In this document: piece by piece, positions 192 through 25,675 of the stretch
How the letters are laid out: every line of letters starts with the position of its first letter
Position numbering within the stretch: position 1 is the stretch's first letter
Source of the DNA: Clostridia bacterium
GTDB taxonomy: Bacteria > Bacillota > Clostridia > Peptostreptococcales > JAAYPU01
NCBI GenBank assembly: GCA_016278615.1
Contig: JADQBM010000006.1
Coordinates: forward strand, 1 to 36,205
Length of the DNA stretch: 36,205 nucleotides
Reading direction: 5' to 3'
Translations under genes and position numbers: made by a program
The notes under the pieces: generated by a model
What the model saw: the letters and a program-made list of their open reading frames with translations, nothing else
Databases searched by the model: none
Told to the model about the DNA's origin: nothing

Positions 192-1393
192 TTTTGTTCA
201 AACAAGGGTAGAATTTCATAGGTGACTTTATCTTTGTTTACAGTGAAGAACAGGGTATCCAGGTCGTTGTAGATGTTGTATTTACTTACTGTGGGGAAGT
301 TTTTTAACGCGACGTAGTGAATGCCATCTTCTAATGTCACTTTGTACTGATTTTCTCCCCCGTATAAAATCCAGATATCCATGTCCTTTTCTTCTTTAAG
401 CTCTGTTAGCTTATTCTTAAATAGATTTTCTTCCAATGGATCACTGAAATTCAAAGGTTTCGGTAGGGATATGAAAAGATTCTTGACCCCTGAATTTTCA
501 AGTGTGGTTAAGAGCCATGGCCACTGATTTGAATTAGAAAGTCTGAGACCTCCATTTGTGTTATCCAATGCAATGAAGCCACTATTAGAATGTTCTGTAT
601 AGGAATATCCCTTGTTGGTGATGATTAACGGGGCTTTAAGCTTCTCACTTAAATGATGATCCAAAGTACCTGAAAATAGATTTATTGAGCTTGTTTCATT
701 TATGGATTTTGCCATCTTAGATGTGACGATGTTGTCTAAGAGGGTATCGATATTTGTCACACTTCCATATGCAAAGAAGCGAAAAGCATCCGTTGTCTCT
801 AAATCAGCTTTTATAGCAGCTAAATCTTTACTGGTGGTGACAGGAGATGGTACTTCCTCTGAAAAAATCAAAGGATATGAGAGTGTTAAATTATCTAAAT
901 AGACTTTTCCCGTATCTTTCATAGCCGGGTTGATTTCTACAACATAGATGCGTTCCAGTTTAAGAGGAGAGGTCAAGGAAGCAGGAAGCTTTGCTTCAAT
1001 GTATTTCCAACCGTTCCAGTTAATAGATTGAGCAAGGGTCACGTTTTCCGATAAACCTTTAGCATCTGTCATTTTCAATTTTAATCCATGACCGCCACCT
1101 TCATTTCCATAAACCCATAATCCAATGTTTTGGGGTTTTGACTCTAAGGGAATACCCTCATTATTAAAAACAAGATAAGCAGCTCTTGTAGCATCTGTGG
1201 TTGTAAAATCATAAGATATTTCACCTGCAGAGCGGCCTTCTTTTTTAAAGGATCCAATTCTGTAGTTGCCTGTAACAACTGCAGGGAATGAAAGAAAGGT
1301 TCCATTTGCACTTTCAAAATCATCTATGACAATATCCTGGGTACCAATAATGACGGGTACATAGGCAGTCAACTCTCCCATAGATATTTTCAT
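188..1393 (-). CDS. C-terminal part of a frameshifted phosphodiester glycosidase-type exported protein
   Basis: This 401-residue frame has no ribosome binding site at its first ATG. Its reading frame is open further upstream to about 1520 and continues, in sense and style, the protein encoded at 1486-3018. Residues about 20-172 look like a jelly-roll, carbohydrate-binding-like domain (starts IVIDDFESANG, ends KVYLDNLTLSY). Residues from about 203 (FRFFAYGSV) to the end resemble the fold pattern of a calcineurin-like phosphoesterase but lack recognisable metal-binding Asp/His motifs, so I infer a degenerate domain only. The 43 codons between the frameshift and the ATG (VDNEGYSAS to NGTGIM) read as normal coding sequence, supporting one ancestral or real gene of roughly 940 codons. 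The piece is probably not translated on its own. The stop codon lies inside the 7-bp-period repeat. Confidence 0.6.
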   Translation of the reverse strand: MKISMGELTAYVPVIIGTQDIVIDDFESANGTFLSFPAVVTGNYRIGSFKKEGRSAGEISYDFTTTDATRAAYLVFNNEGIPLESKPQNIGLWVYGNEGGGHGLKLKMTDAKGLSENVTLAQSINWNGWKYIEAKLPASLTSPLKLERIYVVEINPAMKDTGKVYLDNLTLSYPLIFSEEVPSPVTTSKDLAAIKADLETTDAFRFFAYGSVTNIDTLLDNIVTSKMAKSINETSSINLFSGTLDHHLSEKLKAPLIITNKGYSYTEHSNSGFIALDNTNGGLRLSNSNQWPWLLTTLENSGVKNLFISLPKPLNFSDPLEENLFKNKLTELKEEKDMDIWILYGGENQYKVTLEDGIHYVALKNFPTVSKYNIYNDLDTLFFTVNKDKVTYEILPLFEQK

Positions 1394-9567: not shown

Positions 9568-9912
9568 TGAGTAAGTCAGACAGCTGCGCGTATCCTTTTG
9601 GATATTCGAGGAAAGTCCGAGCTCCATAGGGCAAGGATGCTGGGTAACCCCCAGTGGAGGCAACTTTAAGGAAAGTGCAACAGAAAGATACCGCCCGGTA
9701 TTGCCGGGTAAGGATGAAAAGGTAAGGTAAGAGCTTACCAGCAGCCTGGTGACTGGCTGGCTATGTAAACCCCATCCGGAGCAAGACCAAGTAGGGCATG
9801 AAAGGCAGTTGCCCGCTGCCGCCCAATTGGTAGGTCGCTTGAGCCTATTGGCAACAATAGGCCTAGATAGATGGCTGTCAAATACAGAACTCGGCTTATA
9901 GGCTTACTCATT
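9568..9912 (+). ncRNA. rnpB: RNase P RNA
   Basis: Catalytic RNA of RNase P, which matures tRNA 5' ends. The conserved core is clear: GAGGAAAGTCC near 9608, the AAAGTGCAACAGAAAGATACCGCC-type segment around 9674-9694, and AGATAGATGGCTG with ACAGAACTCGGCTTA near the 3' end. The 5' end (GAGTAAG) pairs with the 3' end (GGCTTACTC) to form helix P1. Length of about 345 nt fits. Ends are approximate by a few bases. Confidence 0.97.
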
Positions 9913-9974
9913 ACATATATTTTACAAAATTAACCAATTAATCAGAAAATTCAAAAAAATATTTATTTATTCAC

Positions 9975-10003
9975 TTGACAAGTTCAGACAAAGGAAATAC
10001 AAT
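9975..10003 (+). promoter_or_regulatory. Promoter of the riboswitch-controlled pilus operon
   Basis: TTGACA (perfect -35), a 17-base gap and TACAAT. Transcription would start near 10010 and produce a leader of about 245 nt holding the c-di-GMP aptamer and a terminator before the first gene. Confidence 0.85.
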
Positions 10004-10032
10004 GAAAATAATTAAATAGGATATTAATATAA

Positions 10033-10116
10033 AACCGATACTGGCAAACTTGCTGAAAGGCAAGGACGCAAAATCACAGGCCTAAGGTCAAATTGACTAG
10101 GGTGGCTGGGTCATCG
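10033..10116 (+). promoter_or_regulatory. c-di-GMP-I (GEMM-I) riboswitch aptamer
   Basis: The aptamer has the family layout: a closing stem (CGAT 10036-10039 with ATCG 10113-10116), the GGCAAAC segment, a hairpin CTTGCT-GAAA-GGCAAG (10049-10064) with the conserved GAAA tetraloop, the invariant GGACGCAAA segment (10064-10072), and the second hairpin with GGCCTAAG serving as tetraloop receptor side and GGTC/GACT pairing, ending GGTGGCTGGG. It binds the second messenger c-di-GMP. It controls the downstream Tad/Flp pilus operon, probably through the terminator at 10199-10237. AACCGATA (10033-10040) can alternatively pair with TATCGGTT in that terminator. Confidence 0.93.
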
Positions 10117-10198
10117 AAGTTTTATTTTATTTTGTAAATAATGTTTAAAATATTATAGTTTTTTTATTATTTTATTTTTAATATTATTTTACGTATGG

Positions 10199-10237
10199 AA
10201 TAGCTTTAATCAATTATCGGTTAGGCTATTTTTTTAT
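10199..10237 (+). terminator. Riboswitch expression-platform terminator
   Basis: AATAGCTT and AGGCTATT form an 8-bp stem (one G-U pair), extended by AA/TT across a bulge, followed by a T-run, ending about 18 bases before the first pilus-operon gene. The terminator loop and upper stem include TATCGGTT (10215-10222), fully complementary to the 5' closing strand of the c-di-GMP aptamer, so the two structures compete. Inferred logic: ligand stabilises the aptamer stem, releases the terminator and switches transcription off. Confidence 0.75.
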
Positions 10238-10255
10238 TTTATAAGGGGTGGTAAA

Positions 10256-10789
10256 ATGCAAAGAATTATGAGGAACACACTGATATTGTTACTGTCCATG
10301 ATTATTTGTGTGACCCTTCAATCAAAAAATACTTATGGAATCTCAGATGATCCTTCTAAGAAGTATTCTGAAAGAGAAATGATTATTCTAAAGACCATAG
10401 GAGCTGAAATTGAAGATGAATATAAAATGGCCACGGCAATATCTGTTGAAAAAATCGTCTCTAATACTTTAAGTTTCAAATTTGATACCCCGCCCATCAT
10501 TTACGATGACCGAACACTGATACCTGTAAGAGCTGTGACAGAAAGCTTAGGTGCAAGTGTTGGGTGGTATCCCAAAGAAAAGAAGGTGTCTATTATAAAG
10601 GATTCCATTACTATAAATCTTTATATAGACAACAACAAAGTGACTGTAAACGATAAAGAAAAGAAAATTGATGTTCCAGCAAAGTTATTAAATAGCAGAA
10701 CTTATGTACCCCTTAGATTTGTAGTTGAGGAGTTTGGGCTGGATATTCAATATGATTCTAAAACCGGTGTTATCACGCTTGGAAATTAG
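10256..10789 (+). CDS. Exported copper amine oxidase N-terminal-like (stalk domain) protein
   Basis: A 177-residue protein with a signal peptide (about residues 1-29: MQRIMRN then a hydrophobic stretch) and a C-terminal stalk domain of the copper amine oxidase N-terminal type (about 80-177), showing the repeated motif RTLIPVRAVTESLGA and RTYVPLRFVVEEFG. In Firmicutes this domain is a common non-catalytic module of surface proteins. The middle segment (30-78) has no recognisable domain. ATG 10256 is preceded by AAGGGGTGG. It is the first gene after the c-di-GMP riboswitch and the leader terminator, so it is probably the most directly controlled; a role at the cell surface with the Flp pilus is inferred only from position. 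Confidence 0.85.
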   Translation: MQRIMRNTLILLLSMIICVTLQSKNTYGISDDPSKKYSEREMIILKTIGAEIEDEYKMATAISVEKIVSNTLSFKFDTPPIIYDDRTLIPVRAVTESLGASVGWYPKEKKVSIIKDSITINLYIDNNKVTVNDKEKKIDVPAKLLNSRTYVPLRFVVEEFGLDIQYDSKTGVITLGN

Positions 10790-10792
10790 GAG

Positions 10793-10963
10793 GTGAATGC
10801 CATTGATTTTTTCAAGATTAGAGAAAAAACAAAATCAAAAGGGCAGTCCGTAGTAGAATATGCACTGATCTTAGGAGGAATTGTTTTTCTTGTGATACTG
10901 GCAATACATACTTTTGGTGATACATTAAAAAGTTATTACGACGTTATCATTTCAAACATTTAA
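10793..10963 (+). CDS. Short Flp-type prepilin (about 53-56 residues)
   Basis: The frame reads KSKGQSVVEYALILGG followed by a hydrophobic helix ending near DTLKSYYDVIISNI. This is a class III (Flp) prepilin pattern: a short basic leader, a G/Q cleavage site, Glu at position +5 of the mature protein and Tyr after it. It lies between the stalk protein and the second Flp pilin. The start is unusual: GTG 10793 overlaps its own Shine-Dalgarno AGGAGGTGA (10788-10796), while ATT 10802 in the same frame has an ideal gap; the nearby ATG 10797 and TTG 10803 are in a different frame that stops quickly. Initiation at the rare AUU is therefore possible. Function: minor or alternative Flp pilin (inferred). 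Confidence 0.75.
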   Translation: MNAIDFFKIREKTKSKGQSVVEYALILGGIVFLVILAIHTFGDTLKSYYDVIISNI

Positions 10964-10992
10964 CAATAAATAAAAACAAGGAGGAACAAAAA

Positions 10993-11184
10993 ATGTTGAT
11001 GTATTTTATGAACCAAATTAAATCTTTAATTTCAAATGAAAGAGGACAAGGCATGGTCGAGTATGCTCTGATTATTTCAGGAATTGCTATTGTAGTATTT
11101 GTAGTCTTTGGTGCTTTAAGCGGTCAGCTCACGACTACTTTCAATACCATTATTACTAAGCTTGGCGGAACTCCAACTCCATAA
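10993..11184 (+). CDS. flp: Flp family type IVb pilin
   Basis: A 63-residue prepilin. The leader is 18 residues ending in NERG; cleavage between G18 and Q19 would expose QGMVEYALII with Glu at +5, the standard Flp signature, followed by one hydrophobic helix (about 22-48) and a small Thr/Gly-rich tail. Flp pilins are cut by a TadV-type peptidase and assembled by the TadA/B/C machinery into thin adhesive pili. GGAGG lies 7 bases before ATG 10993. This is probably the main structural pilin, because its start signals are the best of the small pilin genes. No prepilin peptidase gene is present in the window. Confidence 0.93.
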   Translation: MLMYFMNQIKSLISNERGQGMVEYALIISGIAIVVFVVFGALSGQLTTTFNTIITKLGGTPTP

Positions 11185-11253
11185 GTCAATCGTTATTTCA
11201 ATGTCCATAAAGTGTTATAGGCAAATATCATCTTAAAAAAAGGAGGAAGTACT

Positions 11254-11655
11254 ATGGCGCTGATTAATAAAATAAACAAAAATTCAAAAGGGCAATCTAT
11301 AGTAGAATTAGCCCTTGTACTTCCTTTAATACTTTTTTTAATCATGGGCATGATTGATTTTGGAAGAATTATGAATGCTTATCTCATCACAAATCAAGCT
11401 TCAAGAGAGGGGGTAAGACAAGCTGCAGTGGGTAAAACAGATACAGAAATTATTTATGCAGTGAACCATACTGCAGCTTCTCTTGATTCTTCGATCCTTA
11501 GCATTCTTATAGAACCTCATGAATCTCTGAGACATAGAGGAACTGAAACACAAGTGGCCATTACTTATGAAGTTGAAATTATAACACCAATGATGAGCCA
11601 AATTATTTCAAATCCTTTTGTTATTGAAACCAGCACAAGGATGAGGGTTGAGTAA
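11254..11655 (+). CDS. TadE-like minor pilin
   Basis: A 133-residue TadE-family pseudopilin. The N-terminus has KGQSIVELALVLPLILF with the G13/Q14 processing site and Glu18 (+5), followed by the family motif MIDFGRIMNAY near residues 37-47. The rest is a small periplasm/exterior-facing domain ending at a cluster of Thr. TadE and TadF/G proteins are processed like Flp and needed for pilus assembly. ATG 11254 follows AGGAGG. The next gene follows after 14 bases. Confidence 0.92.
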   Translation: MALINKINKNSKGQSIVELALVLPLILFLIMGMIDFGRIMNAYLITNQASREGVRQAAVGKTDTEIIYAVNHTAASLDSSILSILIEPHESLRHRGTETQVAITYEVEIITPMMSQIISNPFVIETSTRMRVE

Positions 11656-11669
11656 AAGAAGGTGTAAAG

Positions 11670-12593
11670 ATGAAAAGTTTACTCTCTAATCAAAAAGGAT
11701 CCGCTTTGCTAATTGTAACCATTGGAATGACTATCATTTTAGGGACTGTTGCTTTGGTAACGGATGTGGGACTTGCTTTAATAGAAAAGAATAAATTAAA
11801 AAACACAGCAGATTCTGCCGCTTTGGCTGGAGCATTAGAGCTACCCCAATATCCCAATAAAGCAAGAGAAATCGCATTATCTTATGTGGAGAAAAATGGA
11901 TTCCCAAGAGAAATTGCTCAGGTTTCTATCACAGACGATAATCATGGTATTCAATTGATTTTAGAAAATGATATGGATTTTATATTCGCAAAGGTGTTAG
12001 GCTTTACAAGCACAGAATTAAATGTGACTTCAAAGGCAGTCCTGGGATCCGTTACAGAAGTATATAAAGGCATTCGCCCTTTTGCAGTTGAACAGCAATC
12101 ATTTTCTTATGGACAACAAGTGGTTCTGAAAAATGGAGGTGGAGACGGATACCATGGGAATTACGGTGCTCTTGAATTAGGTGGGACAGGTGCCAGTGTC
12201 TATGAAAATAATATCAAAAATGGGTATATAGGAACTATGAGTGTGGGGGATTTCATTGATACAGAGCCTGGGAATATGGCAGGACCCACATTAGACGGTG
12301 TGGATTACATTATTAATGGGGTTGAAGATATTCTTGATGGAGATTACAGTACATTTGATAATTACGCACCAGATTCAAGAAGACTCTGGACGATTCCCGT
12401 AGTGGATTATTTAGATTATGATGGAAGGTCTACAGTGGAGATCGTAGGGTTCGCACTTTTCTTTTTAGAAGATGCAGAGAAGGTGTCAGGACAAGCAGAA
12501 ATAACAGGAAGGTTTATTGAGTTGGTTACCAATGGGAATATTTCTCAAAGCCAGACCCATTATGGGCTATATGGAATTAAACTGGTTCAATAG
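11670..12593 (+). CDS. TadG-like pilus assembly protein
   Basis: 307 residues. The N-terminus has a leader ending QKGSALLIVTIGMTIILG and a TadG-type continuation (TDVGLALIEKNKL, then NTADSAALAGALELP at about residues 46-60) that is typical of the Flp-pilus TadG N-terminal domain. The remaining exterior part (about 120-307) has no von Willebrand A motif that I can see and is rich in Gly/Asp/Asn (GGGDGYHGNYG, DGVDYIINGVEDILDG). It begins 14 bases after TadE, ATG 11670 following AAGGTG, and ends directly before CpaB. Function is inferred from the N-terminal region and the operon. Confidence 0.85.
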   Translation: MKSLLSNQKGSALLIVTIGMTIILGTVALVTDVGLALIEKNKLKNTADSAALAGALELPQYPNKAREIALSYVEKNGFPREIAQVSITDDNHGIQLILENDMDFIFAKVLGFTSTELNVTSKAVLGSVTEVYKGIRPFAVEQQSFSYGQQVVLKNGGGDGYHGNYGALELGGTGASVYENNIKNGYIGTMSVGDFIDTEPGNMAGPTLDGVDYIINGVEDILDGDYSTFDNYAPDSRRLWTIPVVDYLDYDGRSTVEIVGFALFFLEDAEKVSGQAEITGRFIELVTNGNISQSQTHYGLYGIKLVQ

Positions 12594-12607
12594 TAGTGGA
12601 GGTACCT

Positions 12608-13360
12608 ATGAAAAGTTTGAATAAAAAAATATTCTTTTTTGCTATTATCGTTTCATTGATAACTGCCTATTTGGCCTATGATTATCTCAATAAGCTTCAA
12701 CAAGGAAGTTCCGTCATGAAAACCAAAACAATGTTGATTGCTTCTCAGGATATAATGCCAGGGGAGAAAATCTCTAAAAATATGATTACAGATATTGAAG
12801 TTCCTGAGGAGAGTTATTCTCCAATGGGTATACATAACATCAATGAGCTTACAGAAAAAGTCGCAAAAGAGAAAATATTAAAAGGGGAGATTATCCCCCA
12901 TGAAAGATTGTTGCAAGAAGGGGAAACACAACTCCCATTTTTAATCCCTGATGGCAAACGTGCCCTTTCCCTTGCTATTGATGAATTCAGTGGCGTTGCA
13001 GATTTAGTCAAACCCAATGACTTTATTGACATTTATATAACAGTAGAAGAAGAGATAATTGACATGCAGGACAGTAAAATTGTGCATCCTAAGACATCAA
13101 TTCTGCTACTTCAAAACATTCAAGTCATGGCTATAAGTAAAGAAGTAATGAAATCAGAGGATGAAAGGGAAGTGCCGGCGAAATATGCCGTCACAGTAGC
13201 TGTAGACCCTTCCGATGGAGAAAAATTGGTATTAGGTGAAGAAATGGGAAATATTAAAATAGCGTTAAGGGGTATAGGAGATGAATCCATCTATTTTACG
13301 CCAGGCGTTGTCAGAGAAGATTTAGTAACAGAAAAAGGACAAGTCGTTATTTATAAGTAA
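12608..13360 (+). CDS. cpaB: Flp pilus assembly protein CpaB (SAF domain)
   Basis: 250 residues: one N-terminal membrane anchor (about 6-24), an SAF domain (about 36-105) with the family pattern ASQDIMPGEKISKNMITDIEVP, and an RcpC/CpaB C-terminal domain (GKRALSLAIDEFSGVADLVKPNDFIDI and YAVTVAVDPSDGEKLVLGEE). In diderms CpaB works with the secretin; in Gram-positives its role in the envelope is unclear. GGAGG at 12598-12602 fits ATG 12608; the GTG 12 bases upstream would overlap that site and is not used. It follows the TadG-like gene with a 14-base gap. Confidence 0.92.
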   Translation: MKSLNKKIFFFAIIVSLITAYLAYDYLNKLQQGSSVMKTKTMLIASQDIMPGEKISKNMITDIEVPEESYSPMGIHNINELTEKVAKEKILKGEIIPHERLLQEGETQLPFLIPDGKRALSLAIDEFSGVADLVKPNDFIDIYITVEEEIIDMQDSKIVHPKTSILLLQNIQVMAISKEVMKSEDEREVPAKYAVTVAVDPSDGEKLVLGEEMGNIKIALRGIGDESIYFTPGVVREDLVTEKGQVVIYK

Positions 13361-13376
13361 TTGAGGTGAATTTCAG

Positions 13377-14528
13377 TTGGATAAAATCAAGATATTGATT
13401 GCCGATAACAGAAGAGACACACGGGAACTTATTAAAACTTATCTATCGAAAGATCGGTTGATTAAAGTAATTGGTGAAGCAGAAAATGGAAAGAAAGCAC
13501 TGGAACTTTCTATGGAGCTTAAACCAGATATTTTATTGATTTATTACAATATGATTGAAATAGATGGGTATGAAGTTACAGAAAAAGTCACTTCAGAGTT
13601 AAGGGATACTGTTGTAATCATGACTTCGGAAAATGATGATATCAGCTTGGTAAAAAAAGCCATGTTTCATGGCGCCAAGGAATATGTGGTCACACCATTT
13701 TTGCAAGATACATTAGTGGAAACAATTCGATCTGTCTATGAAAAGGAATTTTTGAAAAAAGCAAATCACGAAGTGATTAATTCTAAAGGAACACACAACG
13801 ACAACAAATGTAAAATCATCAGTGTTTTCAGCACAAAAGGAGGTGTGGGAAAATCGACAATTGCTATTAATACCGCATTGGCGCTGACAAAACAGACCCA
13901 AGAAAAAGTGGCTATAATGGATTTAGACCTTCAATTTGGTGATGTGTTGTTAATGGTAAATAAAGAGCCCGTCACTTCCATCATAGACTTTATTAATCAG
14001 TGCGATGAGTATACCCTGGATAACCTTAAATTATTTATGCATGATTATAAAGGCGTTTCCATATTAGCCTCTCCCGTAAGTCCTGAGTTTGCTGAATATA
14101 TATCAGAAGAACATATCGTAGAAATCATTAATTTATTGAAACAGGAATTTAGATATATTGTAATTGACAACCCTAATAATTTTGATGAAACCACTTTATC
14201 CGCTTTGGATGCATCGGACACCATTCTTTTAATTTCCACAATGGATATCGTGTCCATTAAAAATGTAAAAGTGGGCATGGGTGTTTTAAATTCCATTGGT
14301 TATAACGACGAAAAAGTAAAATTGGTTATTAATAAAGCCAATGAAAAATTTGGAATAAAGCTTAAGGATTTAAAGACTGTTTTTGACAAAAATATTTGTC
14401 AGGTTATCATTGAGGACGTGAAAACAGTTGTTACTTCAATAAATAAAGGGACACCTTTGGTTTTAGGGTTCAGCAGTAGTAAAATATCAAAATGTATCTA
14501 TAAATTAGCAGAGCAATTAAAAAAGTAA
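13377..14528 (+). CDS. CpaE/TadZ: pseudo-receiver fused to a ParA/MinD-type ATPase
   Basis: 383 residues. Residues 4-120 have the fold pattern of a response-regulator receiver, but the phosphoacceptor position is Tyr56 (PDILLIYYNM) and the conserved Lys is Thr106 (VVTPF), while the switch Thr83 remains; it therefore cannot be phosphorylated in the usual way. Residues 145-383 are a MinD/ParA-type ATPase with deviant Walker A STKGGVGKST (K159) and VAIMDLDLQFGD. TadZ/CpaE proteins place the Tad machine, usually at a pole. The start is TTG 13377 with GAGGTGA 7 bases upstream. It follows cpaB by 16 bases and precedes the pilus ATPase. Confidence 0.9.
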   Translation: MDKIKILIADNRRDTRELIKTYLSKDRLIKVIGEAENGKKALELSMELKPDILLIYYNMIEIDGYEVTEKVTSELRDTVVIMTSENDDISLVKKAMFHGAKEYVVTPFLQDTLVETIRSVYEKEFLKKANHEVINSKGTHNDNKCKIISVFSTKGGVGKSTIAINTALALTKQTQEKVAIMDLDLQFGDVLLMVNKEPVTSIIDFINQCDEYTLDNLKLFMHDYKGVSILASPVSPEFAEYISEEHIVEIINLLKQEFRYIVIDNPNNFDETTLSALDASDTILLISTMDIVSIKNVKVGMGVLNSIGYNDEKVKLVINKANEKFGIKLKDLKTVFDKNICQVIIEDVKTVVTSINKGTPLVLGFSSSKISKCIYKLAEQLKK

Positions 14529-14607
14529 TCATTACCATTCAAAGAAAAACCATTAAGATTTCTTTTTATCACCAAATTCTTGATTGAGATGGAAGAGGGA
14601 TGAGGAT

Positions 14608-15939
14608 ATGTCATTAAAAGATCGATTGGAAAAAGATAAAATAGAAAGCAATCATGTAATCAAAAAAAATGACATTCACGATAACTCCAATGAGGCATTA
14701 AAGAATAAGATTCAAAACAAAATCATTCAGGAATTATCTGTTGATTATAAAAAGGCCAATGAAAAATATGATGAATTAAAAGACAACATCGAAAAGCTCT
14801 CTGAAGAGATGCTAAAAGATGAAAAAATTACACTAACTTCTAAAGAAAAGGAAAAAATCATCTCAGAAATTTTAGATGAAATTATTGGATTTGGACCCAT
14901 TTCACCTTTTTTAAGGGACAAAGATGTAACTGAAATCATGGTTAATGGGTGTTCTCAAATCTATGTTGAGAAAAATGGAAAATTAATAAAAACCAATAAA
15001 AAATTCAAGGACAATACACATGTATATCATGTTATTGATAAAATTGTAGCCCCATTAGGGAGAAGAATAGATGAAAGTTCTCCTATGGTAGATGCAAGAC
15101 TTCCCAATGGGTCTAGAGTCAATGCCATTATTCCTCCTCTTTCACTTAAGGGTCCCTCATTAACCATTAGGAAATTTTCAGAAGATCCTTTTGGTATAAC
15201 TGATCTTGTAGGCTTTGGGACCCTAACTTCTCAAATGGCGGAATTTATAAAAGCTTGTGTTCAAGGTCGATTAAATGTTGTTGTATCAGGAGGAACAGGT
15301 AGTGGAAAAACCACAACTCTTAATGTACTTTCTTCTTTTATTCCACATAATGAAAGAATTGTCACCATTGAAGATGCAGCAGAACTTCAATTGCCGCAAG
15401 AACATGTGGTGAGCTTAGAAACACGACCTCCAAATGTAGAAAACAAAGGTGAAATTACCATTAGAGATTTGGTTAGAAATAGCCTTAGAATGCGACCAGA
15501 CAGAATTATTGTTGGAGAGGTTCGTTCTGGAGAAGCTTTGGACATGCTTCAGGCTATGAATACAGGCCATGATGGTTCATTAACAACAGGACATGCCAAT
15601 TCTCCTCGAGACATGCTGTCAAGGCTTGAAACAATGGTTCTCATGGCAGGAATGGAGCTTCCCATCAAAGCCATTCGCGAGCAGATCGCCTCCGCTGTTA
15701 ATCTCATTGTACAGCAATCCAGATTAAGAGATGGCAGCAGAAAGATTACCTATATCACTGAAGTACAGGGTATGGAGGGAGATGTGATTATTTTACAAGA
15801 CATTTTTAAATTTCATCAATATGGATTAGATAATAAAGGTAGGGTCATAGGAGAGTTTAAATTTACAGGCATAAAACCTAGTTTTATTGAAAATCTTGTA
15901 TCAAAGGGCATATCCATTCCAACGGGCTTGTTTATTTAA
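14608..15939 (+). CDS. cpaF: Tad pilus assembly ATPase CpaF/TadA
   Basis: 443-residue secretion ATPase of the GspE/VirB11 superfamily, which powers Flp pilus assembly from the cytoplasm. Residues 1-90 are a charged helical N-terminal region. The ATPase part shows VTEIMVNGCSQIYVEKNGK (about 108-126), Walker A GGTGSGKTT (K234), the Asp box IVTIEDAAELQL, Walker B-region DRIIVGEVRSGEALDMLQAMNTGH and the His box LTTGHANS. ATG 14608 follows GAGGGATGAGG; a TTG at 14584 extends the frame but has no site. A gap of 79 bases separates it from the TadZ gene; no convincing promoter is seen in it. Confidence 0.95.
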   Translation: MSLKDRLEKDKIESNHVIKKNDIHDNSNEALKNKIQNKIIQELSVDYKKANEKYDELKDNIEKLSEEMLKDEKITLTSKEKEKIISEILDEIIGFGPISPFLRDKDVTEIMVNGCSQIYVEKNGKLIKTNKKFKDNTHVYHVIDKIVAPLGRRIDESSPMVDARLPNGSRVNAIIPPLSLKGPSLTIRKFSEDPFGITDLVGFGTLTSQMAEFIKACVQGRLNVVVSGGTGSGKTTTLNVLSSFIPHNERIVTIEDAAELQLPQEHVVSLETRPPNVENKGEITIRDLVRNSLRMRPDRIIVGEVRSGEALDMLQAMNTGHDGSLTTGHANSPRDMLSRLETMVLMAGMELPIKAIREQIASAVNLIVQQSRLRDGSRKITYITEVQGMEGDVIILQDIFKFHQYGLDNKGRVIGEFKFTGIKPSFIENLVSKGISIPTGLFI

Positions 15940-15981
15940 GAGACACGTATGGAATTTTGAATAAAATGGAGGAAGCCAAAC

Positions 15982-16962
15982 ATGAAAATCTTATTAATAG
16001 GCTTGATTTTTTTCTCTTGCTATTTGAATATATATTTATTATTTTCTTTTGTTCTCAATCGACCAAAGACCATTGATCGTGTTCATATATATACCCAATC
16101 TAATCATATGAAAAAAGTATCTGTTTCAAAGAAACAAAAGGGTATTTCTGTCCTGCAATTTTCAAAGATCATATCGTTGTTTGGTAAAGCGGTTATCAAA
16201 CTAAACTTCATGTCAAAATTAAAAGACAACCATCAAAAAGAACTCATTAAGGCGGCAATTCCTTTGAAGGGTGAAGAATTTATTGTTATCCAGATCATGT
16301 TGAGTTTTCTTTGTGCTTTCATAGCTTTTCAAATTTTTGACACATTAATTGCGGGATTTTTCTTTGGAATCTTAGGAATTGCTGTTCCGGAAATAGTTGT
16401 GAAGCATAAAAAAAACAAGCGATTAAAACAGTTTAACGATCAGTTAGGGGATACAGTGGTGATGATTTCTAACTCTTTAAAGGTTGGTCATAGTTTTTTG
16501 CAGGCAATTGATACAGCTTCCAAGGAAATGCCAGAGCCCATTTCAAAAGAATTAGGAAAACTTGTTCATGAAATGAAACTGGGGGTATCCTCGGAAGCAG
16601 CATTTGACAATCTCTTAAAGAGAGTAGAAAGTGATGACTTAAGCCTTATGATTACTGCCGTCAATATTCAAAGGCAGACCGGAGGAAATTTAGCAGAAAT
16701 ATTGGATATTATTTCGAAAACCATTCGGGAACGAATCAAAATGAAGGGCGAGATAAAAACACTGACAGCACAAGGTAAATTATCTGGTATTATTGTTTCA
16801 GCGCTTCCGATTCTTATTGCTATTCCTCTCACTTTAATGGATCCTGAATACCTTAAGCCTTTATATACCACCAAACTGGGGATTGTTCTCCTTTGCATAG
16901 CTGTATTCAATGAAATAGTAGGATATTTAATCATCAATAAAATCGTCAAAATTGATTTTTAG
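15982..16962 (+). CDS. tadB: Tad pilus inner-membrane platform protein TadB
   Basis: 326 residues: an N-terminal membrane segment (about 1-22), two further segments (about 105-140), a T2SSF/GspF-type cytoplasmic domain (about 150-280) with QLGDTVVMISNSLKVGHSFLQAI and NIQRQTGGNLAEILD, and two C-terminal membrane segments (about 265-320). With TadC it forms the platform driven by CpaF. ATG 15982 follows GGAGG. tadC begins 9 bases after its stop codon. Confidence 0.92.
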   Translation: MKILLIGLIFFSCYLNIYLLFSFVLNRPKTIDRVHIYTQSNHMKKVSVSKKQKGISVLQFSKIISLFGKAVIKLNFMSKLKDNHQKELIKAAIPLKGEEFIVIQIMLSFLCAFIAFQIFDTLIAGFFFGILGIAVPEIVVKHKKNKRLKQFNDQLGDTVVMISNSLKVGHSFLQAIDTASKEMPEPISKELGKLVHEMKLGVSSEAAFDNLLKRVESDDLSLMITAVNIQRQTGGNLAEILDIISKTIRERIKMKGEIKTLTAQGKLSGIIVSALPILIAIPLTLMDPEYLKPLYTTKLGIVLLCIAVFNEIVGYLIINKIVKIDF

Positions 16963-16971
16963 GAGGCCAAT

Positions 16972-17892
16972 ATGTTATATATTTTGTCTGCCTTAGTTTT
17001 CATCATTATATTTACGTTATGGTATCTTTTGATGAGTTTTTTTTATAAAGACAGGATTCAAATCCTATCAAGGATAAACCAGATTATTCAATCAGGGATA
17101 CAAAAAGAATTGTCTGAATTAGACACACCATTTAGACAGAGAATAATCGTTCCTTTTATCAGAGCAATAGAGAAATTCATCACGAAAATAACCCCTAACG
17201 TAATGAAAAACAAAATAGAACAATACCTCCTAATGGCAGGAAAGCCGATTCATCCTTATGCAGATCGCTGGTTGCTATTTAAAATTGCCTTCGGTTTTAT
17301 TCTTCCCATAGTCCTTTTTGTTTTCATATTTTACAATGGTATTTACTTGAATCATTCTACAGTTATAATAATGGTCTTATTGGCTGTAATGCTTTTTTGT
17401 TTACCTGAACTTTATCTTATGCAATTGGCAAGGAAAAGAAAAAAGGAAATAGAAAAAACCCTCCCAGATGTTTTAGATTTATTAACTGTTAGTGTTGAGG
17501 CAGGGTTATCATTTGATAGTGCCGTCAACAAACTTTCTGAAAAAATGTCAGGTGTCATATCAGAAGAATTTGGTCGAGCTTTACATGAAATAAGAATTGG
17601 CAAAAAAAGAAAAGAAGCATTGATAAGTATAAGCAAACGATGCAATGTTTCAGATTTGTCTATATTTATCAGTTCGTTGATTCAGGCAGATGAACTGGGG
17701 ATTGGCATTGCAAAAATCTTAAAAGTTCAATCTGAACAAATGAGAGAAAAAAGACGCCAACGCGCGCAGGAACAAGCCATGAAGGCACCTGTAAAAATTC
17801 TTTTTCCTTTGGTGTTTTTCATTTTTCCAACGATATTTGTTATTATCTTAGGACCAGCCATTATTAAATTTACACAACTAATGGGTAAATAA
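16972..17892 (+). CDS. tadC: Tad pilus inner-membrane platform protein TadC
   Basis: 306 residues, paralogous to TadB: membrane segment at 1-20, pair at about 100-145, T2SSF domain (about 155-280) with the typical LPDVLDLLTVSVEAGLSFDSAV and LIQADELGIGIAKILKVQSEQMR, and a final membrane segment (about 280-300). Start ATG 16972 has AGGAGG just upstream. Gap to the DUF192 gene is 15 bases. Confidence 0.92.
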   Translation: MLYILSALVFIIIFTLWYLLMSFFYKDRIQILSRINQIIQSGIQKELSELDTPFRQRIIVPFIRAIEKFITKITPNVMKNKIEQYLLMAGKPIHPYADRWLLFKIAFGFILPIVLFVFIFYNGIYLNHSTVIIMVLLAVMLFCLPELYLMQLARKRKKEIEKTLPDVLDLLTVSVEAGLSFDSAVNKLSEKMSGVISEEFGRALHEIRIGKKRKEALISISKRCNVSDLSIFISSLIQADELGIGIAKILKVQSEQMREKRRQRAQEQAMKAPVKILFPLVFFIFPTIFVIILGPAIIKFTQLMGK

Positions 17893-17907
17893 AAAAGGAA
17901 ATCAAAT

Positions 17908-18255
17908 ATGAAAAATGTCATCATTACAAATCAAGATAAGGAACCCCTTTTTACAAAAGCTCAAATGACAACACGTTTTTTTGAGAGACTTGTTGGTTTA
18001 ATGGGAAAAAATAACATAGAAGAAGAAAGCGCTTTGTGTATAAAACCCTGTAACAGTATTCACATGTTTTTTATGAGGTTTTCAATAGATGTTGTTTTTT
18101 TGGATGCTGAAGGAAGTGCTATCTGGTTAATTGAGCATATGAAACCTTGGCAAATAAGCAAAATCGTTAAAAAATCAACATGTGTTATAGAAATGCCCTG
18201 TGGTGCCATAAAGAAAAAAAAGATTAAATTATATGATAAAATTGAAGTTGTATAA
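17908..18255 (+). CDS. DUF192 family protein
   Basis: 115 residues, nearly entirely a DUF192 domain, with the family hallmarks RFFERLVGLMGK (near 24-35), CNSIHMFFMRFSIDVVFLD (near 49-67) and CGAIKKKKIKLYDKIE at the end. No signal peptide, unlike many DUF192 proteins. Function of the family is unknown; its genes are often found beside Tad genes in Gram-positive bacteria, and here it ends the pilus operon, 15 bases after tadC. It is followed by a strong terminator, so it is very likely cotranscribed with the Tad genes. AAAGGAAATC precedes ATG 17908. Confidence 0.88.
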   Translation: MKNVIITNQDKEPLFTKAQMTTRFFERLVGLMGKNNIEEESALCIKPCNSIHMFFMRFSIDVVFLDAEGSAIWLIEHMKPWQISKIVKKSTCVIEMPCGAIKKKKIKLYDKIEVV

Positions 18256-18281
18256 AGTACTGATAATCCTCCTATATCCTA

Positions 18282-18322
18282 AACGATTAAATTCAATTCT
18301 ATGAATTTAATCGTTTTTTTTT
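18282..18322 (+). terminator. Strong terminator closing the Tad/Flp operon
   Basis: Perfect 14-bp stem AACGATTAAATTCA/TGAATTTAATCGTT, 6-base loop, and a T-run of about nine. One of the strongest terminators in the window and the natural 3' end of the 8-kb operon that begins at about 10010. Confidence 0.93.
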
Positions 18323-18478: not shown

Positions 18479-18506
18479 GATATAAAATTCTTCTCGCGGA
18501 GTGAAC

Positions 18507-21500
18507 ATGATGAATCAAAAAATATTAAGATTAGGTGTTGATATTGGATCAACTACTATAAAGACTGTATTGTTAAATGAAAGAAATCATATTATTTATA
18601 GCAGTTATGATCGACATATGTCTAACATCTGGAAAAAGACAACTTCTGTGATTAACGATGTCTATTTGAAATTTCCCAATAGTCAAGTTTGTGTTGCCAT
18701 AACAGGCTCAAGTGGATTGGGAATCTCTCAAAGTCTGGATTTGCCCTTTGAACAAGAAGTTATCGCATGTAGCAAAGCAGTAGAAGCTTTTATTCCCGAA
18801 ACAGATGTTGCTATCGAGCTTGGTGGAGAAGATGCCAAGATTACGTTTTACGGCAGTACCATTGAACAAAGAATGAATGGAACATGTGCAGGGGGAACAG
18901 GTGCTTTTATCGACCAGATGGCAGTTCTCCTTAAAACAGACGCTCTGGGTTTAAATGAATTGGCCAACCAGAACTCAACACTTTATCCAATCGCTGCGCG
19001 ATGTGGTGTCTTCGCTAAAACAGATATTCAACCTTTGTTGAATGAAGGTGCAAGAAAAGAAGATATTGCTGCATCCATATTTCAATCAGTGGTTAATCAA
19101 ACCATAGGTGGACTTGCTTGTGGACGCACCATCAAAGGAAACATTGCTTTTTTAGGAGGCCCGTTGTTCTTTTTGCCGGAATTGAGAAAGCGTTTTATAG
19201 AAACTTTGCATATGAAAGAAGAAGAAATTATTTTTCCAGAAAATGCACACTATTATGTCGCAATGGGAGCGGCACTTCTTTCGGAAAAAAATTCCCCCAT
19301 GGCTTTAACAGAACTTAACAGTCTTATTAAAAACGTCCCTAAAAACGCAACTTCTGATATAAAATATTTAGACTCGTTGTTTAATAATCAAGAAGAATTT
19401 GAAGAATTTACTCAACGACATAGTAAAAATGGCATAGAAAAAATAGATATATCACAGGCAAGTGGGGGTTGCTTCTTAGGTATTGATGCAGGTTCCACTA
19501 CCACAAAAGCGGCTTTGATAGATGAAAGTGGACGCTTGATGTATACCTTTTATAAGAATAATGAAGGAAAACCTTTAGAAGCGGCAAAGGAAATGCTTAA
19601 AGAACTGTATGCATTACTTCCAGATAAAGCGTTCATTGCACACTCAGCTGTTACCGGTTATGGAGAAGGATTGCTTAAAACGGCGCTTTCAATAGATATT
19701 GGTGAAATTGAGACCATGGCTCATTATAAAGCCGCCCAATTTTTTTTACCAGGGGTTGATTTTATACTGGACATTGGTGGGCAAGATATGAAGTGTATGA
19801 AAATAAAAGACAGTGTCATACACAACATCATGCTTAACGAAGCTTGTTCATCTGGATGCGGGTCTTTTATTGAGACCTTTGCAAAGTCTCTTGATATGGA
19901 AGTAGAGGAATTTGCTGAATCCGCCTATTTTGCAGAGTCACCCGTTGACTTGGGTACAAGATGTACCGTGTTTATGAATTCAAAGGTCAAGCAAGCACAA
20001 AAAGAAGGTGCTACCATTGGAGATATTTCTGCTGGTTTATCTTATTCTGTTGTAAAAAATGCTTTGTACAAGGTTATTAAAATGAGAAATTCTAAAGATG
20101 CAGGGGAAAAAGTCATTGTACAAGGTGGAACATTCTATAACAATGCTGTTCTTAGAGCCATAGAGAAGATACTGGGACGAGAAGTCATAAGACCTTCTAT
20201 TTCTGGAATAATGGGGGCCTTCGGAATTGCTTTGATTGCGAAAGAAAAGCATGTTACGGGAATGTCATCTGGGATCATTCTTTCAAAGGACATTGAAGCT
20301 TTTAATTCTCAGGTGCTTTTTTCTAGGTGTCATAGGTGTGAAAATAATTGTCAGCTCACCATTAACAAATTCAGTAATGGTAAAAGATTTACTACAGGTA
20401 ATCGATGTGAAAAAGGGGAAGGATTGGAACTTGCAGATAATCATATCCCTAATATGTTTGATTATAAATATAAAAAACTATTTGATTATCAACCCTTAAA
20501 AATTCCAAAGGAAAATAGAGGGATTATTGGAATTCCAAGAGTTTTAAATATGTATGAAAACTATCCGTTTTGGTTTACGGTTTTGACGAATTTGGGTTTT
20601 CAGGTTGTACTTTCTCCCTGTTCCTCTAAAAAGATTTATGAACTTGGAATAGAAAGTGTCTCATCAGATACCGCTTGCTACCCAGCTAAGCTTGTTCACG
20701 GACATATCAGATGGCTGATGAATCAAGGGATTAAAACCATATTTTATCCTTCTATTGTGCATGAAGTTCTTGAAGATAAAAATACCAACAACCATTTTAA
20801 CTGTCCTATTGTAGCTTCTTATCCTGAAGTCATAAAGAACAATATGGATGATTTATTTAAGAGTCATCAAGTAAAATTCATACATCCATTTTTGCCTTAT
20901 GATGATAAAAAAAGATTGGCCACAAGAATTTCTGAGGAATTTAAAGAATATCATGTGACTTTAAAAGAAGCAAAACAAGCAGTTAAGGCAGGGGATGAAG
21001 AGGATAAAAAGTTTAAGCAAGATATAAAAGATAAAGGAAAGGAATGGGTAGACCTTTTAAACAAGGAAAATAAAAAAGGGGTTATACTGGCCGGAAGACC
21101 CTATCATTTAGACCCTGAAATAAATCATGGAATCGCTAATATCCTTATGTCTTTTGGCATGGCAGTACTTACAGAGGATGCGGTTTCTCATTTAGGTCAT
21201 ACCCAAAGGCCTCTGAGAGTGCTTGACCAATGGATGTATCATACGAGACTTTATCAAGCGGCCTCTTTTGTTTCAAATGAAAAAAATCTTGAATTAATTC
21301 AGTTAAATTCTTTTGGATGTGGCCTTGATGCCATCACAACAGATCAGGTAGAAGAAATTTTGCTTAACAATAACAAACTTTATAATGTCATTAAAATAGA
21401 TGAAGGCAGTAATTTAGGTGCTGCTAAAATCAGAATTCGATCTCTGAAGGCAGCAATGGAAGAAAGAGAACAAAATCATATGGTGCCAGGCAAGAAAGAA

Positions 21501-22757
21501 AAAAGTTTTAAACGTGCTGAGTTTAAAAAATCAATGAAAAAAGAACACACCATCTTGTGCCCACAAATGTCGCCCATTCATTTTCAATTCTTAGAAGGTG
21601 CCATGAGAACGGAAGGGTATAATATAGTTGTATTACCAACGGTCAACAAGAGTGCAGTTGAAGAGGGCCTCAAACATGTGAACAATGATGCTTGTTATCC
21701 AACAATTGTTACTCTAGGGCAAATAATAGATGCATTGAAATCAGGAAAATATGATCTTGACAAAACCTCCGTTATTATTTCTCAAACCGGTGGTGGATGT
21801 CGGGCAAGTAATTATATTGCTTTGTTAAGAAAAGCATTAAAGGAAATTGGAATGCCACAAGTGCCTGTTATTTCAGCCAATATTGTTGGTCTTGAAAAAA
21901 ATGAAGGCTTCAAACTTAGTTATTCTTTGATTAAAAAAATCGTCATGGGCATTTTATATGGTGATTTGCTCATGAGAGTCGTTTATAAGATTAGGCCTTA
22001 TGAAAGAATCAAAGGAACAACAAATGCTCTTTACAATAAGTGGTCAGAGACGAGTTTGGATAATGTTAAAAACGGGAGTTTAAAAGAGTTCAAAGAAAAT
22101 ATAAAGAGTATCGTAAGAGAATTTGACAGTATTGAGATGGTGGAAAAAAACATACCAAAAGTTGGGGTTGTAGGGGAGATATTGGTTAAATACCATCCCA
22201 CTGCAAACAATGATGTTATCAACATTATTGAAAAAGAAGGTGGAGAAGCTGTAGTCCCTGATTTAATGGATTTTTTCCTTTATGGGATGCACAGCAAAGA
22301 GTTTAATTATGAAAAATTATCAGGGAAATGGAATACCATGTTTCTCAATAAAATAGTGATTGGTATTATTGAAAACTTAAGAGATGTTTTAAGAAATGCA
22401 CTTGAAGATAGCAAACATTTTGAACCGCCCATAACCATTAGAAAATTGGCTCAAAAAGCTCAATCCATCCTATCTCTTGGAAATCAATATGGCGAGGGTT
22501 GGCTTTTGACAGGGGAAATGGTAGAATTATTGGAAAGTGGCATATCCAATATTATTTGCTTACAGCCATTTGCTTGTCTGCCCAATCATGTGACGGGGAA
22601 AGGTATGATGAAGGTGCTTCGAAAAAGATACGAATATGCCAATATTGTAGCGGTTGATTATGATCCTGGTGTAAGTGAAGTCAACCAATTAAACAGAATA
22701 AAACTCATGATGTCTACAGCTTATAAAAATATAAATAATAAAAAAAATTGCGTATAA
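18507..22757 (+). CDS. Large 2-hydroxyacyl-CoA dehydratase activase-type protein (BadF/BadG/HgdC ATPases fused to DUF2229 and HgdB-like regions)
   Basis: About 1416 residues. Two ASKHA-type activase domains in tandem (about 8-265 and 322-590), each with a VDIGSTT or IDAGSTTTK phosphate loop. The 4Fe-4S ligands of the HgdC family are present in both: C127 in NGTCAGGTG and C166 in AARCGVF; then C447 in NEACSSGCG and C486 in TRCTVF. Both pairs are 39 residues apart. Next come a Cys cluster CHRCENNC and GNRC (about 610-636), a DUF2229 region and a large HgdB-like region (for example [17 protein letters not shown] near 1100). HgdC-type proteins reduce a dehydratase by ATP-driven electron transfer; the partner and substrate of these giant fusions are unknown. 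GGAG lies 5 bases before ATG 18507 (18510 also possible). No dehydratase subunit is encoded nearby. Confidence 0.88.
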
Positions 22758-25489: not shown

Positions 25490-25675
25490 ATGTTCCTGGG
25501 ATGTTTGTTTAAGGTTATTTAATTCAACCTACAGTTTGCATTCGGAAGTTCGGGTTTTTTCATGTATGGCATGCCTCCTTTGAGTGGAAGTCAGAAATGA
25601 AAAGCAGAACATCCACCTAATTTTGTTAGGGTGTGAATTGGTTAACCTAACGGCATTCCGGGTATTATTGTTTTT
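25490..25675 (+). ncRNA. ssrS: 6S RNA (probable)
   Basis: A 180-190-nt RNA with the 6S layout: the ends pair (CCTGGGATG 25495-25503 with CATTCCGGG 25654-25662, with two wobble pairs), the GCATTCGG and GTTCGGGTTTTTTC segments, the ACATCCACCT strand opposing AGGGTGTG, and a large central asymmetrical bubble are expected for clostridial 6S. It is followed by a T-rich stretch. 6S RNA binds the housekeeping RNA polymerase and mimics an open promoter. Boundaries are estimated to about 5 bases; identification rests on remembered family features, so a covariance search is needed to be certain. Confidence 0.75.

Follow-up and report, generated by a model that had tools for sequence, protein, structure and literature searches.

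A c-di-GMP-I riboswitch candidate with a predicted 5'-strand antiterminator ahead of a Tad/Flp pilus operon in a Clostridia bacterium

The Tad/Flp operon and its leader

The DNA analysed here, referred to as the window, is the whole 36,205-nt stretch at positions 1-36,205 of the forward strand of contig JADQBM010000006.1, from a Clostridia bacterium (JAAYPU01) with a host genome of 3.5 Mb in 128 contigs. A Tad/Flp pilus operon occupies 10256-18255, with genes for Flp, TadE/G, CpaB, CpaE, TadA, TadB and TadC arranged in a row; such an operon had been named in an earlier note on this DNA, and profile matches from Flp through TadC bear it out. All genes of the operon and all elements of its leader lie on the plus strand. 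The first gene (10256-10789) encodes a secreted protein with a Cu_amine_oxidN1 domain (PF07833, E 3e-36) and has orthologs behind the same leader in two other genomes, G001 and G024. It is followed by a probable extra Flp-type pilin of 56 residues, SKGQSVVEYALI (10793-10963), too short for the ORF list and matched by Flp_Fap at E 1e-4, which does not reach the curated cut-off. Its ribosome-binding site is good; as the frame has no ATG, it would start at GTG or ATT. A search of the stretch from the first gene to the pilins found no promoter or terminator. The genes that follow encode an Flp pilin (10993-11184; PF04964), a TadE-like pseudopilin (11254-11655; PF07811), a TadE/G-like Tad protein (11670-12593; PF13400), CpaB/RcpC (12596-13360; PF16976, and TIGR03177 above the cut-off), a CpaE/TadZ-like protein combining a response regulator with an ATPase (13377-14528; Response_reg and AAA_31), the TadA/CpaF ATPase (14584-15939; PF00437, with the TadA family TIGR03819 as best NCBIfam match), and TadB-like (15982-16962) and TadC-like (16972-17892) proteins, both T2SSF. 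A DUF192 protein (17908-18255; PF02643) is the last of the cluster, and a 15-bp stem followed by a T run at 18281-18316 is a probable operon-end terminator.

Several other elements were seen in the window. A 1418-aa CoA enzyme activase with two BcrAD_BadFG stretches and DUF2229 is encoded at 18501-22757, after the Tad operon. A 6S RNA (25490-25668, 85.2 bits) is flanked by yebC-like and PHP-domain genes, and a Clostridiales-2 RNA (RF02937; 7348-7427) by a sigma-70 factor gene and trmK. Letters resembling the latter, AAGGAGGGTGC...GCCGAAGGGAACC, also occur behind the aptamer in L065. The RNase P RNA gene (9568-9914) lies directly upstream of the leader; it is also upstream in G001, there with an extra insertion of about 90 bases.

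The leader begins with a sigma-A-type promoter, TTGACA-17-TACAAT (11/12 matches; 9975-10003), with a predicted start near 10010; a similar promoter sits at the equivalent place in G001. The c-di-GMP-I (GEMM-I) aptamer follows 30 nt downstream, exactly where the earlier note had placed it (10033-10118). Its covariance-model score for RF01051 is 71.6 bits (E 2.6e-12), above the curated gathering cut-off of 35, and P2 with a GAAA tetraloop, P3 and the GACGCAAA junction are all present in the RF01051 alignment. The site is typical of RF01051, a leader ahead of surface or motility genes, here with a promoter, a terminator and Tad genes. Rfam finds five c-di-GMP-I aptamers in the host genome, the window copy included. 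The same genome holds 22 GGDEF and 6 EAL matches, so c-di-GMP signalling is likely in the host.

The 5' side of P1 is formed by AACCGAUA (10033-10040), hereafter the P strand, and the 3' side by the A strand at 10113-10123 (AUCG, an AA bulge and GUUUU). An A+U-rich linker hairpin (10135-10189), predicted in both folded states, would bring the P strand near the terminator. The intrinsic terminator (10197-10236) consists of a hairpin at 10197-10232 (-10.1 kcal/mol, z -2.98) followed by TTTTTTT, and its loop and 3' arm contain UAUCGGUU (10215-10222), the complement of the P strand.

Pairing of the P strand with the terminator and its retention in relatives

In the DNA, AACCGATA (10033-10040) and TATCGGTT (10215-10222) are exact reverse complements over 8 bp, with no extension, as the earlier note had stated. 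Of the second segment, UAUC lies in the terminator loop and GGUU at the top of the 3' arm. We estimated the chance level with 20000 dinucleotide shuffles, counting exact complements of at least 8 between the 5' region of P1 and the terminator; these arose in 241 shuffles of the terminator (1.2%) and in 1037 of the whole leader (5.2%). The window's own pairing was also weak in separate shuffles (2-9%). Taken alone, the pairing is statistically weak; its weight comes from the relatives: both segments are unchanged in G001, and in G024 different letters form the pairing.

The family comparison covered three genomes. G001 carries this leader ahead of the corresponding operon, with 81% identity over 226 bases; AACCGATA and ATTATCGGTT are unchanged there, the linker is 74% identical and the terminator is stronger (-17.5 kcal/mol). 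Aptamers of the order often have CGATA as their 5' flank, so the unchanged P strand in G001 is modest evidence by itself. G024 belongs to another family and has an aptamer, a first gene orthologous to that of the window (41% identity, E 3e-41), a second aptamer and pilins. By folding at the decision point, its P strand GCAUAuCGAUAaCGG (also given as GCAUAUCGAUAACGG) is predicted to form about 12 bp with the terminator of its own leader, CCGUAUCGUAUGC. The two pairing segments have a core in common with those of the window, the flanks of this core differ on both sides, and the pairing persists; G024 is more telling than G001 for the antiterminator, as one case and not a statistical test of covariation. 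The earlier note had set complementarity in relatives as a test of the pairing, and these two leaders uphold it. Accordingly, it is quite unlikely that the window holds a chance 8-bp match in an A+T-rich leader, with a terminator that provides basal attenuation and any regulation running through other pairing: the shuffle rate of the whole leader and the common CGATA flank speak for such a match, and retention of the pairing in both orthologs, in G024 through other letters, speaks against it.

Several other candidates were set aside in the search for relatives. The contig ends 66 bases away from a similar aptamer in G002, so the platform there is unreadable. G015, which has an aptamer and Tad genes, was rejected as an ortholog: its leader lacks the pairing, and the first gene there is Flp. 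Homologs of the first gene in other genomes were mostly other stalk-domain paralogs with no leader of the window type, and most weak matches in a DNA search of the order were to the A+T-rich linker or the aptamer core and were disregarded. On the G024 contig C291 (locus L262), two c-di-GMP-I aptamers stand at the head of one Tad operon, preceding the Cu_amine_oxidN1 gene and the pilins, respectively. In L162, three separate c-di-GMP-I aptamers (at 396, 3206 and 5946) lie upstream of a TadA gene on a 10-kb contig.

A wider survey took in 73 leaders of the order with a clear terminator, located by a finder strict enough to pass over the window's A+U-rich linker hairpin. For each 5' strand, its own terminator was ranked against all terminators. 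The own terminator fell in the top 5% for 11 leaders, against an expected 3.65; the mean pairing energy was not shifted relative to mismatched pairs (p 0.14 over the 73 leaders), only the tail being enriched. A general rule that c-di-GMP-I 5' strands pair with terminators was therefore rejected. Strong non-orthologous cases were found in G042 (shuffle fractions 0-0.002) and G028 (0.002-0.007); L182 did not beat its shuffles and was dropped. A 3'-strand signal (p 4e-7) was left unused as partly an artefact, the fixed 3' segment overlapping some terminators. The 5'-strand wiring thus recurs in the order but is not the rule. Nor is it general among Tad leaders: six more distant ones at five loci (G015, L091, L108, L152 and two in L162) fold with 3'-strand antiterminators, in the manner of Cd1 of C. 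difficile. An aptamer ahead of Tad genes in Neobacillus muris (L097), for which a nearby terminator was not found, was left out of the wiring classes.

Predicted switching and its sign

Our preferred reading is that the leader at 10010-10255 is probably an OFF riboswitch of the c-di-GMP-I class that acts on transcription of the Tad/Flp operon. The P strand AACCGAUA would have a choice of two partners that exclude each other. With ligand bound, it would pair with the 3' strand of P1 (10113-10123), the terminator would be free to form and transcription would stop near 10236. Without ligand, UAUCGGUU, on leaving RNA polymerase, would capture the P strand before the 3' arm of the terminator is complete, and this pairing would take GGUU from the terminator and allow read-through, presumably into the whole operon. 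The earlier note had proposed the 5' closing strand as antiterminator, a role in which folding and the two orthologs concur.

In constrained folding of the whole leader, the computed ensembles were balanced between two states: -55.6 kcal/mol with the antiterminator forced and the same with P1 forced, and -54.9 kcal/mol for P1 together with the terminator. P1 and the terminator are compatible in these folds and the antiterminator excludes P1, as in an OFF platform. Stepwise equilibrium folding of the window put P1 at 0.96 once the aptamer was complete, the antiterminator at 0.99-1.00 when 10215-10222 emerged, and antiterminator and terminator at about 0.5 each once the terminator was finished. 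From this predicted order, a ligand that stabilises P1 would therefore cause termination. At full length, a bound-like aptamer comes at a cost of only about 1.2 kcal/mol, an amount that a ligand present at tenfold its Kd could supply (RT ln 11 = 1.5). These figures describe equilibrium secondary structure, and leave aside ligand, tertiary contacts, kinetics and polymerase pausing. At full length, equilibrium in G001 favours the terminator even without P1; the switch there must therefore be kinetic.

We infer the OFF sign, which the earlier note had also predicted, from this folding. The reverse sign, with ligand favouring read-through, is very unlikely. In its favour, high c-di-GMP often goes with pilus production. 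There is also a precedent in B. thuringiensis, where the class I switch Bc2 turns on an adhesin (PMC4933901). However, an ON switch of the Bc2 kind is at odds with the folds, in which the 3' strand of P1 was not seen to pair with the 5' arm of the terminator, and P1 and the terminator were predicted together.

The earlier note had held OFF to be contrary to expectation for an adhesion system, a claim that does not stand. In C. difficile, class I switches are OFF, a calcium-binding adhesion protein being among their targets, and class II switches are ON, including that of type IV pili (PMC11477304). Moreover, all Tad leaders classified by folding appear to be of OFF design, in two wirings. Among the class I switches of C. 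difficile, OFF is thus usual; for a pilus it is still of interest, though it would not stand alone. The two OFF wirings predicted for Bacillota Tad leaders raise a testable question, whether Gram-positive Tad pili are switched off at high c-di-GMP.

The ligand and comparison with known systems

The earlier note had overlooked a U at 10114, the position of C92, the ligand-pairing residue in other members. Mutation had assigned the equivalent C87 of Cd1 as a ligand partner (PMC9262584). Among 113 aligned aptamers, position 92 is C in 105, U in 4 (the window included), A in 3 and a gap in 1. Its neighbourhood reads CAUCG in the window, CGCCG in G001 and CACCG in G024; both orthologs keep the C. 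Separately, L073 (G001 contig C14) holds two tandem pairs of c-di-GMP-I aptamers, and the last of these four aptamers (425-508, minus strand) likewise has U at position 92. The other ligand contacts of the window aptamer are intact, with the G20 equivalent at 10043, A47 at 10070 and A47-A49 retained, in numbering transferred through Rfam and Bc1 alignments and not from a structure. The U at 10114 may be an assembly error.

Because C92 is U in the window copy, its c-di-GMP affinity or specificity seems doubtful, and a response to c-di-GMP itself would be less certain than for its orthologs. Lacking the C of the c-di-GMP-sensing class, the window RNA is therefore placed in the RNA family, and as a sensor it is a predicted one only. 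U92 also lets A10038-U10114 and U10039-A10113 lengthen P1, and this extension fits the preformed P1 predicted by folding. One alternative is that U92 and A91 simply extend P1 (CGAU/AUCG) with no grip on a ligand, so that the leader would be a constitutive, leaky attenuator of the pilus operon. Such decay is unlikely, though of some weight: besides the U itself, stepwise folding without ligand gives a preformed P1 in the window (0.96) and hardly any in G001 (0.01-0.18), and the window terminator is the weaker of the two. Against simple decay, P2 carries a compensated change between the window and G001 that appears to date from after their split, G20 and A47-A49 are intact and the antiterminator pairing is retained.

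A change of ligand is another alternative, in which an aptamer with G20 and U92 would favour a dinucleotide whose second-site base is adenine, such as 3',3'-cGAMP or, with lower probability, c-di-AMP. The window has G at 10043, not the A at position 20 that we take to be the mark of GEMM-Ib (3',3'-cGAMP) riboswitches. Within the class, a G20A mutation can permit cGAMP binding. An engineered Vc2 G20A/C92U binds c-di-AMP, and takes c-di-GMP only at 4900 nM versus 0.011 nM in the wild type (PMC9049102). In the window, however, G20 is kept, and C92U by itself still permits a G-U wobble with c-di-GMP; U92 is limited to the host genome and a few weak aptamers, and the neighbouring C93 might assume the ligand pairing. 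We consider a changed ligand very unlikely, and a natural C92U aptamer with G20 that senses another cyclic dinucleotide (one guanine, one adenine) and is joined to a 5'-strand antiterminator highly improbable. The natural C92 substitution beside C-keeping orthologs offers a ready test of how affinity and specificity are tuned in the class.

The earlier interpretation thus stands for the family, the operon, the 5'-strand antiterminator and the OFF sign, and fails in calling OFF unusual and in passing over U92. The RNA class is well known; what would be new, judging by the letters of two families, is a c-di-GMP-I platform that breaks its terminator with the 5' closing strand, a wiring of GEMM-I switches for which a limited literature search found no description. 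The window RNA is a c-di-GMP-I family member with a less common expression platform, and there is real doubt about its ligand.

Among known systems, Cd1 of C. difficile flgB (PMC9262584) shares with the OFF riboswitch proposed here the GEMM-I aptamer, a terminator compatible with the bound aptamer, an antiterminator in the free RNA and the OFF sign. Its antiterminator uses the 3' strand A (T+A+H; PMC9262584), whereas the window, G001 and G024 by folding use the 5' strand P and are therefore not Cd1-type platforms; Cd1 controls flagella, and the window leader precedes a Tad pilus operon. Bc2 of B. thuringiensis cap likewise joins a GEMM-I aptamer to a terminator before a surface adhesin gene, but is ON by experiment (PMC4933901), in contrast to the predicted OFF sign of the window leader. 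The C. difficile c-di-GMP-II switch resembles it as a riboswitch over a type IV-family pilus operon, with a class II aptamer and an ON response (PMC11477304) where the window has class I and a predicted OFF response. The pilM GEMM-I riboswitch of Geobacter metallireducens shares the GEMM-I fold and a pilus-related gene name and, unlike the window RNA, has cGAMP as ligand and an ON platform with a P+A antiterminator (PMC9262584).
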